DNA of 64,000 nt from Diphasiastrum complanatum (taxonomy: Eukaryota; Streptophyta; Lycopodiopsida; Lycopodiales; Lycopodiaceae). Numbering within the stretch: the stretch's first letter is position 1; each line of letters begins with the position of its first letter. Positions 6,276-48,091 of the stretch are shown one piece after another. Under the pieces are notes generated by a model. It saw nothing but the letters and a program-made list of their open reading frames with translations. It was not told where the DNA came from and did no database searches. A program made the translations under genes and the position numbers. The DNA is taken from positions 21,062,331-21,126,330 of the forward strand of contig CM055094.1 of assembly GCA_029204225.1 (NCBI GenBank), read 5' to 3'.

Positions 6276-6698
6276 ATGGCTCGGACGAAGCAAACCGCTA
6301 GGCTTACCCATTTTGTTCAACCGTCCCGTCCCCATACATCTGAACCCATACGTCCGCAAAGATGCGAAAGACCTTGCCATCCATGGTTGAGGGACATCAG
6401 GGCCTTGCAGAGGTACACCAAACTTGTGATCCTGAAAGCAGCCTTGTACCGGGCTGTGAGGGAGGTTACAGAAGATATGACCACGCATATGCCCTATGGA
6501 GTGAGGTGGAATATCGCTGCATTGGAGGCCCTCCATATTGCATACGAGGACTTCCAGACAAAATTGATTGAGGATTCGATGCTGTGTTCCATTCATGGCA
6601 AGAGGGTGACACTGATGCCCAAGGACATGCTTCTTGTCATGAGGTTTCGAAACACCTATGACAGCAGTATGCCACATGGCAAATCATGCAGGCTTTAG
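6276..6698 (+). CDS. CENH3-like histone H3 variant, copy 1
   Basis: A 140-residue, intronless histone-fold protein. Residues 1-9 are MARTKQTAR, identical to the canonical H3 tail, but the next residue is Leu in place of K9. The rest of the ~37-residue tail is Pro/Arg-rich and unlike H3. The alpha-N helix (LRDIRALQR, 38-46) and helices 1-3 follow H3 order. Loop 1 is longer and ends in RW (77-78). From that RW to DSMLC the spacing matches plant CENH3 without a gap, and DSMLCSIH resembles the CENH3 version rather than H3 DTNLCAIH. KRVTLMPKD matches H3 alpha-3. The end is not RIRGERA; it runs into array sequence and stops at TAG 6696-6698. The expected role would be nucleosome H3, perhaps at centromeres; that role is inferred. 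Plant CENH3 genes usually have introns, so a retrocopy origin is possible. Confidence 0.75.
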   Translation: MARTKQTARLTHFVQPSRPHTSEPIRPQRCERPCHPWLRDIRALQRYTKLVILKAALYRAVREVTEDMTTHMPYGVRWNIAALEALHIAYEDFQTKLIEDSMLCSIHGKRVTLMPKDMLLVMRFRNTYDSSMPHGKSCRL

Positions 6699-6699
6699 G

Positions 6700-7690
6700 G
6701 TTGCCATGTGGCAAGCCATGTAGGCCTACCATAACCTTGTATGTCAAGCCAACTGAGCCCTGTGCCACGTAGGCTTGAGTGGACCTAGAGATCTATATAT
6801 ATATATAGGTGGGCTCAAAAGTTGCCACTTGGCAAACCATACAGGCCTACCATAGGCTTGCATGGCAGGCCACATAGGCATGGCATATTTTTTATTCTTC
6901 CCATGTAAGCATGTCACAGGCTACCACATAGGCTTGCCATAGGCTTGGCAAGCAAACCAAGCTCTGCCATGTAGGCTTGAGTGGAGCTAGAGAGAGAGAG
7001 CTGGGGCTCCCAAGTTGCCATGTGGCAAGCCATGTAGGCATGTCATGAGATAAACCATAGGCTTGCATGGCAGGCCACATAGGCATGGCATATTTCTGAT
7101 GCTTCCCACGTGAGCATGTTGCAGGATACCACATAGGCTTGCCATAGGCTTGTGTGGCAAGCCAACCAAGCTCTGCCATGTAGGCTGGAGTGGAGCTAGA
7201 GAGAGAGAGCTGGGGCTCCCAAGTTGCCATGTGGCAAGCCATGTAGGCATGTCATGAGATAAACCATAGGCATGGCATATTTCTGATGCTTCCCACGTAA
7301 GCATGTCACAGGATACCACATAGGCTTGCCATAGGTTTGTGTGGCAAGCCAACCAAGCTCTGCCATGTAGGCTTGAGTGGAGCTAGAGAGGGAGAGCTGG
7401 GGCTCCCAAGTTGCCATGTGGCAAGCCATGTAGGCATGTCATGAGATAAACCACACAGGCTTGGGACTTACCATGTGACAAGCCATGTAGGCCTATCATA
7501 GGCTTGCGTGGTAGGTCATATAGGCATGATATAGGCTTGATGCTAGTATGTTCATGCTGATATGTTTTAGTCTGCCATATAGGCTTGACATAGGCTTGTG
7601 TGGCAAGCCAACTAAGCTATACCACGTGGGTCTGCCATGTAGGCTTGAGTGGAATGAGAGAGAGAGAGAAAGAGAGAGAGAGAGTGAGTG
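6700..7690 (+). repeat. ~200-bp tandem array with GCCATGTGGCAAGCC submotif
   Basis: About 2.7 units of 190-210 bp (unit starts near 6960, 7170 and 7357). Each contains several short variants of GCCATGTGGCAAGCC and TAGGCTTG and a GAGAGAG tract. A TA run lies at 6794-6806 and GA at 7656-7684. Both strands show open frames of 60-200 codons here, which follow from the repeat composition rather than selection. The array follows each CENH3-like gene directly. Copies: 23060, 25024, 34612, 46843 and 56800. Confidence 0.75.
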
Positions 7691-7714
7691 AGGAGTCACA
7701 CATGAACTACTTCC

Positions 7715-7948
7715 TTGTGGTATGGCCTAGCATCAACGTTGAAAAAAATATCTGATGGAGATAAGAAGGGTCCCAAGCAAATTTCAAATGAGAATCTTGC
7801 AGAGAAAGTATTGAAACCACAGTTGGCAAGGGATCCCAAAGAATCGAACGTGAGTGTACAAGCCCAACAAAAGCGCATACACCAACTCACCACACATGGG
7901 AAGATTGTTAAATTTGAATTTGAAGAAAAATCATTGAAATGTTTGTAG
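7715..7948 (+). CDS. Lys-rich short ORF (ISDGDKKGP family)
   Basis: A 77-codon frame with a charged central part (ISDGDKKGPKQISNENL, LARDPKESN) ending FEFEEKSLKCL. It is kept in frame in three copies, with a partial fourth at 9053-9247. I recognise no domain. It follows the tandem array downstream of the CENH3-like gene, so it could be a 3' exon of a transcript crossing the array or an independent small gene. A chance frame in a recent repeat is also possible. Confidence 0.35.
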   Translation: MWYGLASTLKKISDGDKKGPKQISNENLAEKVLKPQLARDPKESNVSVQAQQKRIHQLTTHGKIVKFEFEEKSLKCL

Positions 7949-45440: not shown

Positions 45441-45486
45441 CAATGCATGGAATCTCTCTCTCTCTCTCTCTCTCTCTGCATTATCG

Positions 45487-46829
45487 ATGTTCTCTGTCCT
45501 GATTTCGCCTCTTATTTTCGTCATTTACAGGAGGCTGAAGAGTCTCAGAAAAGGATTGTTGATCCAACATCGGCTTAGGAAGATGGAGCAGGACCTAGAA
45601 ATGAACATAGTATCGGCGGCTGAGAAAATCCGTTTGCCAAAATATCAGAAACTACGAAATCTATATGCGGAAGAAATTTGGAGGCACATGATATCAGTAA
45701 TTCGATTCTGGTAGGACGCAAAGACGCGGACAAGTCAGTTCCAACGACAACATCTAATTTGATCGGGAGCTCTTCTCAGCCAGAATTAATGGCGTCTACC
45801 GGTTGGAGAGCTCCAGTCCTCAAAGATACGCATGTGAATGAAAGGCTTGAGCAAGCACCAAAGCAAGTCCAGAATGATCCTTCTTTCAACGCAAGATTTC
45901 GTAGAAGACGAGCATGGAGATCGGAAGACAACATATCAGCATATCCTTGCAACTTTGCGATAATAGATGGCTCGTTCACTTCTCAGAAGGAATGTCATAC
46001 ATCAATCAATAATCTCTGGGAACTGAGTTCTGATTCTCGCGATCCTACAATCCAGCTACAACACAAGTTCTGCCAGTTTCTGTTGACTGTCATGGGCCAA
46101 AGGTTTGAGCAAGATCCACAATTTTCCATCAATCCCAACAAAGCGGTCCTTCACATGGAGGATACCAGGATCTATTTACGGATTCAATACTTTCCTGCAG
46201 ACTCCATACATATCTTAGAAGAGATGTGCACTTCAGGATTTATCATCAATGCTGATGAGGGTTACATGTACACCCAGAGATCAAAAGCATTTACTAGTCG
46301 AAGACAAATACGGACTCGAAACTGCTTCAACTGGCTACGTGAGCAAAATCATAAGCATGCCATTAAGTCAACTCTTATAGGACGAAAAGACGGGGACAAG
46401 TCAGTTCCAACGACGGCATCTAATTCGATCGGGAGCTCTTCTCAGCCAGATTTAATTGCGTCGACCGGTTGGAGAGCTCCATTCCTCAAAGATACGTACG
46501 TCTATGAAATGCTTGATCAATCACCAAAGCAAATTCAGAATGATCCTCCTTTCGACCCAAGTTTTCGTAGAAGACGAGCGCTAGCATGGAGATCGGAAGA
46601 CAACATATCAGCATATCCTTGCAACTTTGCGATAATAGATGGCTCGTTCTCTTCTCAGAAGGAATGTCATACATCCATCAAGAATTTGTGCAAATTAACT
46701 TCCGATTCTGACGATCCTACAATCAAGCTACAACACAAGTTCTGCCAGTTTCTGATGACTGTCATGGGCCGAAGGTTTGAGCAGGATCCACAATTTTTCA
46801 TCAACCACAGGGAAGTAGGTCATGTGTGA
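45487..46829 (+). pseudogene. Duplicated-domain protein T, copy 2 (frameshift and truncation)
   Basis: Plus-strand copy of 9897-11456. It starts MFSVLISPLIF. One base is missing near 45635 (GTTTGCC against GTTTGGCC), which shifts the frame. From 45678 the frame is open for 383 codons and includes the Ser codon that is a stop in copy 1. The first repeat is complete. The second is cut at DPQFFIN, where a sequence ending REVGHV from the array flank is attached. The two copies carry different lesions, so the ancestral gene was intact when duplicated. The CT run upstream is short (45453-45478). Confidence 0.6.
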
Positions 46830-46842
46830 CTCCTCACTCAGA

Positions 46843-47640
46843 CTCTCTCTCTTCTCTCTCTCTCTCTCTCTCTCTCTCTCTCTCTCTCTCTCTCTCTCTC
46901 ATTCCACTCAAGCCTACATGGCAAACCCACGTGGTATAGCTTAGTTGGCTTGCCACACAAGCCTATGTCAAGCCTATATGGCAGACTGCAACATACCAGC
47001 ATGAACATACTAGCATCAAGCCTATGTCATGCCTATATGACCTACCACGGAAGCCTATGATAGGCCTACATGGCTTGCCACATGGCAAGTCCCCAGCCTG
47101 TGTGGTTTATCTCATGACATGCCTACATGGCTTGCCACATGGCAACTTGGGAGGCCCAGCTCTCTCTCTCTAGCTCCACTCAAGCCTACATGGGAGAGCT
47201 AGGTTGGCTTGCCACACAAGCCTATGGCAAGCCTATGTGGTATCCTGCGACATGCTTACGTGGGAAGCATTAGAAATATGCCATGCCTATGTGGCCTGCC
47301 ACACAAGCCTATGGTTTATCTCATGACATGCCTACATGGCTTGCCACATGGCAACTTGGGAGCCCCAGCTCTCTCTCTCTAGCTCCGCTCAAGCCTACAT
47401 GGCAGAGCCTAGTTTGCTTGCCACACAAGCAAACTATGTGGTAGCCTGCGACATGTTTACGTAGGAAGCATCAGAAACATGCCATGCCTATGTGGCCTGC
47501 CACACAAGCCTATGGTAGGCCTGTGTGGTTTGCCAAGTGGCAACTTTTGAGCCCACCTATATATATATATATAGATCTCTAGGTCCACTCAAGCCTACAT
47601 GGCACAGGGCCCAGTTGGCTTGACATACAAGGTTATGGTA
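46843..47640 (-). repeat. Tandem array beside CENH3-like copy 3
   Basis: CT run 46843-46900, two to three ~200-bp units, TA run 47559-47573. The Lys-rich ORF is missing because the array is joined directly to gene T. Confidence 0.7.
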
Positions 47641-48091
47641 GGCCTACATGGCTTGCCACATGGCAACCCTCAAGCCTGCATGATTTGCCATGTGGCATAC
47701 CGCTGTCATAGGTGTTTCGAAACCTCATGACAAGAAGCATGTCCTTGGGCATCAGTGTCACCCTCTTGCGATGAATGGAACACAGCATCGAATCCTCAAA
47801 CAATTTTGTCTGGAAGTCCTCGTATGCAATATGGAGGGCCTCCAATGCAGCGATATTCCACCTCACTCCATAGGGCAGATGCGTGGTCATATCTTGTGTA
47901 ACCTCCCTCACAGCCCGGTACAAGGCTGCTTTCAGGATCACAAGTTTGGTGTACCTCTGCAAGGCCCTGATGTCCCTCAACCATGGACGGCGAGGTCTTC
48001 CACGTCTTTGTAGACGTATGGGTTCAGATGTCTGGGGACGGGATGGTTGAACAAAATGGGTAAGCCTAGCAGTTTGCTTCGTCCGAGCCAT
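47633..48091 (-). CDS. CENH3-like histone H3 variant, copy 3
   Basis: A 152-residue intronless frame with MARTKQTARLTHFVQPSRP, an Arg-rich tail (RRGRPRRP), alpha-N LRDIRALQR, loop 1 to RW (77-78), FEDSMLCSIH and KRVTLMPKD. The last ~25 residues derive from the array. Against copy 1 about 11 substitutions are seen over the shared 140 residues, about 6 of them in the tail. The downstream order (promoter, gene M, coiled-coil block, family B) mirrors the left arm. Same interpretation and doubts as copy 1. Confidence 0.75.
   Translation of the reverse strand: MARTKQTARLTHFVQPSRPQTSEPIRLQRRGRPRRPWLRDIRALQRYTKLVILKAALYRAVREVTQDMTTHLPYGVRWNIAALEALHIAYEDFQTKLFEDSMLCSIHRKRVTLMPKDMLLVMRFRNTYDSGMPHGKSCRLEGCHVASHVGLP

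Follow-up and report, generated by a model that had tools for sequence, protein, structure and literature searches.

Why should several intronless genes for a histone H3-like protein lie within amplified, transposon-rich repeats of a plant genome, and whose genes are they? The question is raised by a stretch of 64,000 nucleotides from the lycopod Diphasiastrum complanatum (assembly GCA_029204225.1, contig CM055094.1, here C3:21062331-21126330), referred to below as the window. A first-pass annotation, made from the sequence alone, had read three frames in it as a small family of genes like CENH3, the centromeric form of H3. We compared these frames with the whole genome (1,744,706,496 bases, 5176 contigs; contigs are given C numbers and loci L numbers), and propose, with a probability of roughly 60%, that they are deleted, locally amplified copies of the H3-like gene of large dispersed transposons, which would supply an anti-silencing H3 variant.

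The H3-like frames and their transposon

All three intronless frames are present as annotated (copies A, B and C; Table 1). Each begins MARTKQTAR; copy A stops at a TAG, and copies B and C continue to 152 aa. The window proteins are 92–93% identical to copy C. The H3 fold ascribed to them was upheld by profile search, all three matching Pfam PF00125 at 72–78 bits (cut-off 26.4 bits), scores and E values (Table 1) that exclude a chance match. RW, DSMLC and KRVTLMPKD, singled out in the first-pass annotation along with the start, are likewise found in the window proteins. Compared with solved chains, copy C is closest to H3mm15 and H3.3, with the CENP-A homologue Cnp1 in seventh place.

Dispersed copies resemble one another for several kilobases beyond the H3 frame in both directions, and their ends can be recognized. 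The left end, CATTAnAGGAGTTCC(AA)GGCCCAAAAGGG, has 145 exact matches genome-wide and none in the reversed control; without CATTA and with up to two mismatches there are 286 matches, again with none for the reversed pattern. CATTAn occurs in seven of the eight left ends read (two of the eight share flanks). The right end, reverse-complemented, is CATTAGAGGAGTTTTGAGC; right ends reading CTAATG or TTAATG were seen at four loci (two of which share flanks) and in two of five further right-end slices, and no right end was found in slices L095, L099 and L101. Three copies have the H3 frame enclosed by both ends, namely L048+L051, which is ∼7.1 kb long, and two elements of ∼10 kb each at C2:46.841-46.851 Mb and C2:47.901-47.911 Mb.

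On the strand of the H3 gene the element carries a 211-aa frame and transposase-like pieces, and the opposite strand holds two more coding regions. The motifs AGDLK, CLYC and HICTLH (L042/L047) and GMEKSH (L046) were picked out by eye in separate open frames, and which D and E are catalytic is our own assignment. With their C(2)C and H(4)H motifs, these pieces agree with what is described for the CMCT clade, C(2)C and H(3-4)H (PMC12730594), and the termini (CATTAn...nTAATG) match its 5'-CA..TG-3' ends. We term the element CMCT-like only, because the transposase-like frames gave no convincing Pfam match in the element pieces scanned, and do not file it as a CMCT member, because a target-site duplication of 2-5 bp is absent in all three copies with both ends (L048+L051, L092/L093 and L096/L097). 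Matches to hAT domains were likewise lacking in the pieces scanned, which is weak evidence, as Pfam recognized no transposase family in them at all. The C-terminal piece of the transposase is a repeat in its own right, with at least 150 matches (best 150 of 7393 candidates).

Copy number and the local array

The family proved far from small. A search of the genome with the window protein, in which the best 150 of 7714 candidates were scored and array members were counted by hand, returned at least 94 copies in C3:18.5-30.2 Mb or C14:49.4-49.9 Mb, hereafter the array, and at least 56 copies outside it at 78–87% identity. The 357-aa H3-fusion frame of a dispersed copy has at least 117 matches at no fewer than 114 places (best 114 of 9280 candidates). 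All these counts are lower bounds, and they may include assembly duplicates, as some of the places are near-identical and on small contigs. In a Pfam histone search of the genome (best 150 of 6325 candidates scored), 13 frames reached ∼164-165 bits, and the eight fetched (L001-L008) are canonical H3; below them come a long series at 95-110 bits, in which 20 of 20 places read are non-canonical H3-like (L043, L044, L067-L081, L084-L086), and then three matches at 83-84 bits. Two of the last three (L082 and L083) belong to host H3.3-type genes, in which an intron interrupts the histone fold. Chlorophyll a/b-binding proteins, with 37 matches in the genome, agree with a green-plant host.

Exact AGGAG... 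ends number 41 on C3 in the array stretches, and among the places listed, whose order extends past C14, an exact CATTAn end occurs nowhere at C3:18.5-21.8, C3:29.9-30.2 or C14:49.4-49.9 Mb. Since its ends lack CATTA, segmental duplication most likely built up the array; the copies in the window bear deletions, have been amplified as segments and are in decay. Stops interrupt 39 of the 94 array frames and 55 are stop-free, where neutrality at 3-4% divergence per lineage predicts a stop-free fraction of 0.56-0.65; many dispersed copies have stop codons as well. With its H3-bearing repeat units the array is of megabase scale, and it may mark a pericentromeric or centromeric region.

Diverged families under purifying selection

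The non-canonical H3 frames fall into at least six diverged families (F1-F6), with 33–64% identity between families over the fold. In F1, the window type, the fold is fused to a C-terminal part without Pfam match in a frame of 357 aa. F2 has the fold at its C-terminus, after a proline-rich stretch, with a long insert before the fold; its start, read in one copy (the 417-aa open frame of L043), is MARTKQTAR. F3 comprises L074, L080 and L090, and F4 (L081), F5 (L086) and F6 (L069) are represented by one copy each. In the two families whose elements were read, F1 and F2, the elements share the C-terminal part of the transposase (36%, E 3e-17, pairwise search), ORF2b (E 2e-9) and ORF4 (E 1e-14 by blastp, 1e-21 by tblastn). 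Because these other coding regions are shared, the H3 gene very probably predates the split between F1 and F2.

The ratio of nonsynonymous to synonymous differences per site (pN/pS) was taken between seven representatives, one for each family plus canonical H3. It lies at 0.23-0.55 in all 21 pairs (15 between families and six with canonical H3), as against 0.99 (standard deviation 0.09, minimum 0.75) in a shuffled-codon control; the values are rough because synonymous sites are saturated, but their direction is clear. From low ratios in every pair we conclude that the H3 gene has been kept by selection. Within F1, pN/pS is 0.35 in the array, 0.40 among dispersed copies and 0.50 between the two, and 0.29 over the histone fold in the 30 best array copies, all biased low because an open frame or the protein score was the main ground for selecting the 30 array and 15 dispersed copies (of 23 dispersed loci fetched, eight were excluded, mostly as frameshifted or truncated). 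Neutral evolution across further copies, which the first-pass annotation named as evidence against its reading, is therefore seen in part: stops in the array are about as frequent as neutrality predicts, but between families selection is purifying.

Two further observations concern the end of the F1 gene. A likely intron follows the fusion frame (5956-6063 in L042, at the same place in L041 and L045-L048), and the exon after it reads KHWSVHVISM in five of the six copies with donor and acceptor and KHWSVHAISM in L048. The HW motif after this intron suggested by eye a Ulp1-type (C48) protease at the F1 C-terminus, a candidate that we dropped: exon 1 has no Pfam match, two spliced versions have no C48 match, and PDB gave no match.

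Kinship to CENH3

How far does the label CENH3-like hold? In a maximum-likelihood tree the six transposon families are united (81/84) and adjoin two plant CENH3s (70/77), those of Arabidopsis and maize, represented by provisional reference sequences. Approximately unbiased (AU) constraint tests gave p-AU 0.489 for the transposon proteins with plant CENH3, 0.098 for the same proteins with canonical H3, and 0.037 for F2, F5 and F6 with H3, and the first arrangement has a log-likelihood better than the second by 12.6. On these sequences kinship to CENH3 would thus be favoured, though not significantly. Identity over the fold, compared with the same provisional sequences, leans the other way: for F1-F4 canonical H3 is nearer than either CENH3, F5 is tied between canonical H3 and maize CENH3, and F6 is slightly closer to maize CENH3. 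The label CENH3-like is thus partly supported.

Single motifs are similarly divided. Relative to canonical H3, loop 1 is longer by four residues in F1, by one in F3 and by none in F2, F4, F5 and F6; in the plant CENH3 references it is longer by two. The longer loop with RW, on which the first-pass annotation had relied, occurs in F1, the window's own family, and in none of the F2-F6 representatives. Those of F2-F5 mostly read LIPRAPF, and the counterpart in the plant CENH3 references is LIPFAPF/LIPAASF. MARTKQTAR is the canonical H3 start, and plant CENH3s presumably begin MARTKH. The spacing from RW to SMLC, also offered as a sign of CENH3, is no pointer to it, because it is the same in all H3s aligned, canonical ones included. 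L087 (C3:74789300-74792500, minus strand) holds an exon of a diverged H3 that may be the host CENH3; no following exons were found within the 8.2 kb read, and the host CENH3 was not recovered.

A proposed function and its alternatives

The likeliest function would be that of an element-encoded H3 variant altering chromatin on the element, probably against silencing. All 42 F1 copies with residues 1-9 have lysine at the position of H3-K4, and none of the 42 has it at K9; over residues 10-47 any lysine occurs in nine of 45 copies, where canonical H3 has seven lysines. Since F1 keeps K4 and is without K9 and almost every other lysine of the tail, chromatin unable to take the K9 silencing mark is suggested. 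The transposon would make the H3 variant, which would pair with host H4 and enter nucleosomes on or near the element; such chromatin could carry the 'active' K4 mark but not the K9 silencing mark, and the element would escape silencing. The window copies would be a by-product, having lost most of the transposase and the terminal CATTA before or while segmental duplication spread them on C3 and C14. For other transposons, an escape from silencing by way of element-encoded products, e.g. TET/JBP, has been proposed (PMC12730594).

Several results weigh against this proposal. Beyond these positions, dispersed F1 copies have conserved the tail poorly, which weakens a mechanism based on it: exact MARTKQTAR is found in two of 12 dispersed copies as opposed to 28 of 30 array copies, and pN/pS of codons 1-9 is 1.62 in the dispersed copies, a value from few sites. 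At position 4 the single F4 copy reads E in place of K. AlphaFold2 models of the window H3 (three sequences) were uninformative (predicted local distance difference test score, pLDDT, 44.1). To these are added the array copies, which gain stops at about the neutral rate, the roughness of the between-family ratios, and the lack of both a target-site duplication and a convincing transposase match described above.

The decay of the array and of many dispersed copies would be expected if a host H3 or CENH3 transcript had merely been captured, carried and copied without function, as in fungal hAT elements whose captured H3 copies decayed in six species (PMC6710886). We consider this unlikely, given that six families with 33–64% identity still hold the fold, that pN/pS is low in every pair of representatives, and that the gene very probably predates the split of elements sharing other coding regions. 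Host domestication of one or more copies as an H3 variant gene, with the array as its gene cluster, appears very improbable. The size of the array, its stop-free majority and the fold pN/pS of 0.29 would suit it, and so would the comparison of the 30 best copies with L009, in which pN is 0.021 and pS 0.068, with differences of 0.040 in the 150 bases after the frame and 0.110 in the 400 bases before it; but pN is lowered by the choice of these copies by protein score, and the frequency of stops fits neutrality.

A true CENH3 paralogue, an element protein derived from plant CENH3 that targets or competes at centromeres as a selfish centromere trait, strikes us as quite unlikely. It would accord with the position in the tree and its better log-likelihood, with LIPRAPF in most of F2-F5, and with the loop and RW of F1, but the branches are long and union with canonical H3 is not rejected; canonical H3 is the closer by raw identity for four families out of the six, and the PDB search points the same way, loop 1 has H3 length or one residue more outside F1, the start is H3-like, and the host CENH3 was not recovered. 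Possible but doubtful is a wider reading, in which a CENH3-related H3 variant is a core gene of an old plant transposon lineage and may direct elements towards centromere-like or unsilenced chromatin, or nucleate it; if so, each element would supply the histone of its own chromatin, and it would be this histone that had shaped the chromatin of the megabase array on C3.

Under our preferred reading of an anti-silencing variant, an H3 gene kept by selection is as one would predict were a histone variant of benefit to its transposon, and the elements offer a testable case of a mobile element that would edit chromatin through a nucleosome component of its own instead of an enzyme. Annotators should also take note: frames labelled 'histone H3-like' in this plant, by the hundred and perhaps by the thousand, would belong to transposons.

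Repeat units and element remnants in the window

The carriage of the H3 genes on transposon-rich inverted repeats was borne out by self-comparison (Table 1): the unit with copy A is co-linear in inverse orientation with that of copy C, with 90–98% identity in matching blocks, and ∼2.4 kb near 7695-10135 is its only stretch without a partner. Around copy A the element runs from 3287 through remnants of the first frames and the first 29 aa of the transposase core to H3 at 6276, the rest of the core being gone up to the region before the H3 frame. Within the window, tblastn matched neither the other transposase pieces tested nor ORF2 or ORF4, and no right end was found.

Table 1. H3-like frames, repeat units and transposon remnants located in the window
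Feature	Position	Strand	Remarks
H3-like frame, copy A	6276..6698	+	140 aa; Pfam Histone E 4.7e-20
H3-like frame, copy B	35393..35851	-	152 aa; Pfam Histone E 5e-20
H3-like frame, copy C	47633..48091	-	152 aa; Pfam Histone E 8.5e-22
∼16-kb repeat unit with copy A	3287..19558	+	self-comparison of window
∼15-kb repeat unit with copy C	36530..51186	-	inverted, co-linear with 3287-19558
Left end, element of copy A	3281..3311	+	CATTCG in place of the CATTAn of dispersed copies
Left end, element of copy C	51162..51186	-	end motif
Left end, further fragment	29864..29888	-	end motif
Left end, fragment cut by window edge	196..220	-	end motif
Remnant of first frame (211 aa in L048)	3876..4507	+	tblastn
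Further first-frame remnants	50524-49894, 29228-28597	both -	tblastn
Remnant of second frame, perhaps N-terminal part of transposase	4623..5127	+	tblastn
Further second-frame remnants	49818-49192, 28506-27832	both -	tblastn
First 29 aa of transposase core frame as read in L047	5316..5402	+	tblastn
Further 29-aa transposase-core remnants	49003-48923 (-), 24347-24433 (+), 57244-57164 (-)		tblastn
209-bp tandem repeat, two copies, after H3 frame	6849..7271	+	also 34854-35276, 47103-47516

Interleaved with the H3 units are Copia-type pol fragments at 20386-21093 (-), 26486-26971 (+) and 58916-59815 (+), in which Pol_BBD was matched with E 3e-21, 8e-5 (below the Pfam cut-off) and 1e-20, respectively; the first also has gag_pre-integrase at E 2e-6, just below the cut-off. 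A repeated open frame of 427/383 aa, at 9897-11180 (-) and 45678-46829 (+), gave no convincing Pfam match; it is 98% identical between units over 10135-11490 and has an internal duplication of ∼89%.

Comparison with known systems

Among the best matches of a literature search on transposon-borne H3 (few subscription papers covered), we found no report from plants, no CMCT-like carrier and no long-diverged families. The DNA viruses that encode single H3 genes resemble the present case in that the gene is borne by a parasite and that some of the proteins have N-terminal extensions, comparable to the F2 insert (PMC9145170); here the gene sits in transposons, and F1 has no relatives in IMG/VR contigs, where none of 40 pattern matches obtained with the F1 alignment as query was confirmed, so that a viral origin was set aside. 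With plant CENH3 the elements share RW and SMLC (F1), LIPxAPF (most F2-F5 members) and a weak affinity in the tree, and they differ in the canonical H3 start, in a loop 1 of H3 length or one residue longer in five of six families, and in having at least hundreds of mobile copies.

The CMCT clade consists of EnSpm/CACTA, Plavaka and others, some of which encode TET/JBP dioxygenases (PMC12730594). CA..TG termini, the C(2)C and H(3-4)H transposase motifs and an added gene acting on chromatin or DNA marks are common to that clade and our elements, whereas CMCT members have a 2-5 bp target-site duplication and, in some, dioxygenase cargo (PMC12730594), and the present elements have a histone as cargo, with neither a target-site duplication nor a Pfam transposase match seen.

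The nearest precedents are fungal. In Pyrenophora tritici-repentis, a hAT element with terminal inverted repeats, present in 26 copies, carries an H3-like frame (H3L), which fits neither H3 nor CenH3, and a further frame (PMC3538342). It is thus, as here, a DNA transposon with an H3-like gene beside another frame, but in a fungus, with a hAT transposase and near-identical recent copies; the present elements are in a green plant, have no hAT match, end in CATTA, are more numerous, and fall into six diverged families on which purifying selection has acted. A ∼9.5-kb hAT element with hundreds of H3-like copies, most of them decayed, is known from Pseudocercospora fijiensis and five related fungi (PMC6710886), a likeness in element size, abundance and decay. 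That gene was captured from a host canonical H3 transcript and inactivated by repeat-induced point mutation (RIP), in elements with a 20-bp terminal inverted repeat and an 8-bp target-site duplication (PMC6710886), whereas here no such duplication was seen and the H3 is deeply diverged and long retained. Capture of H3 by transposons is therefore already known from fungi, apparently as a recent accident (PMC3538342, PMC6710886); in Diphasiastrum complanatum the gene looks like an old, diversified and long-kept part of its element.

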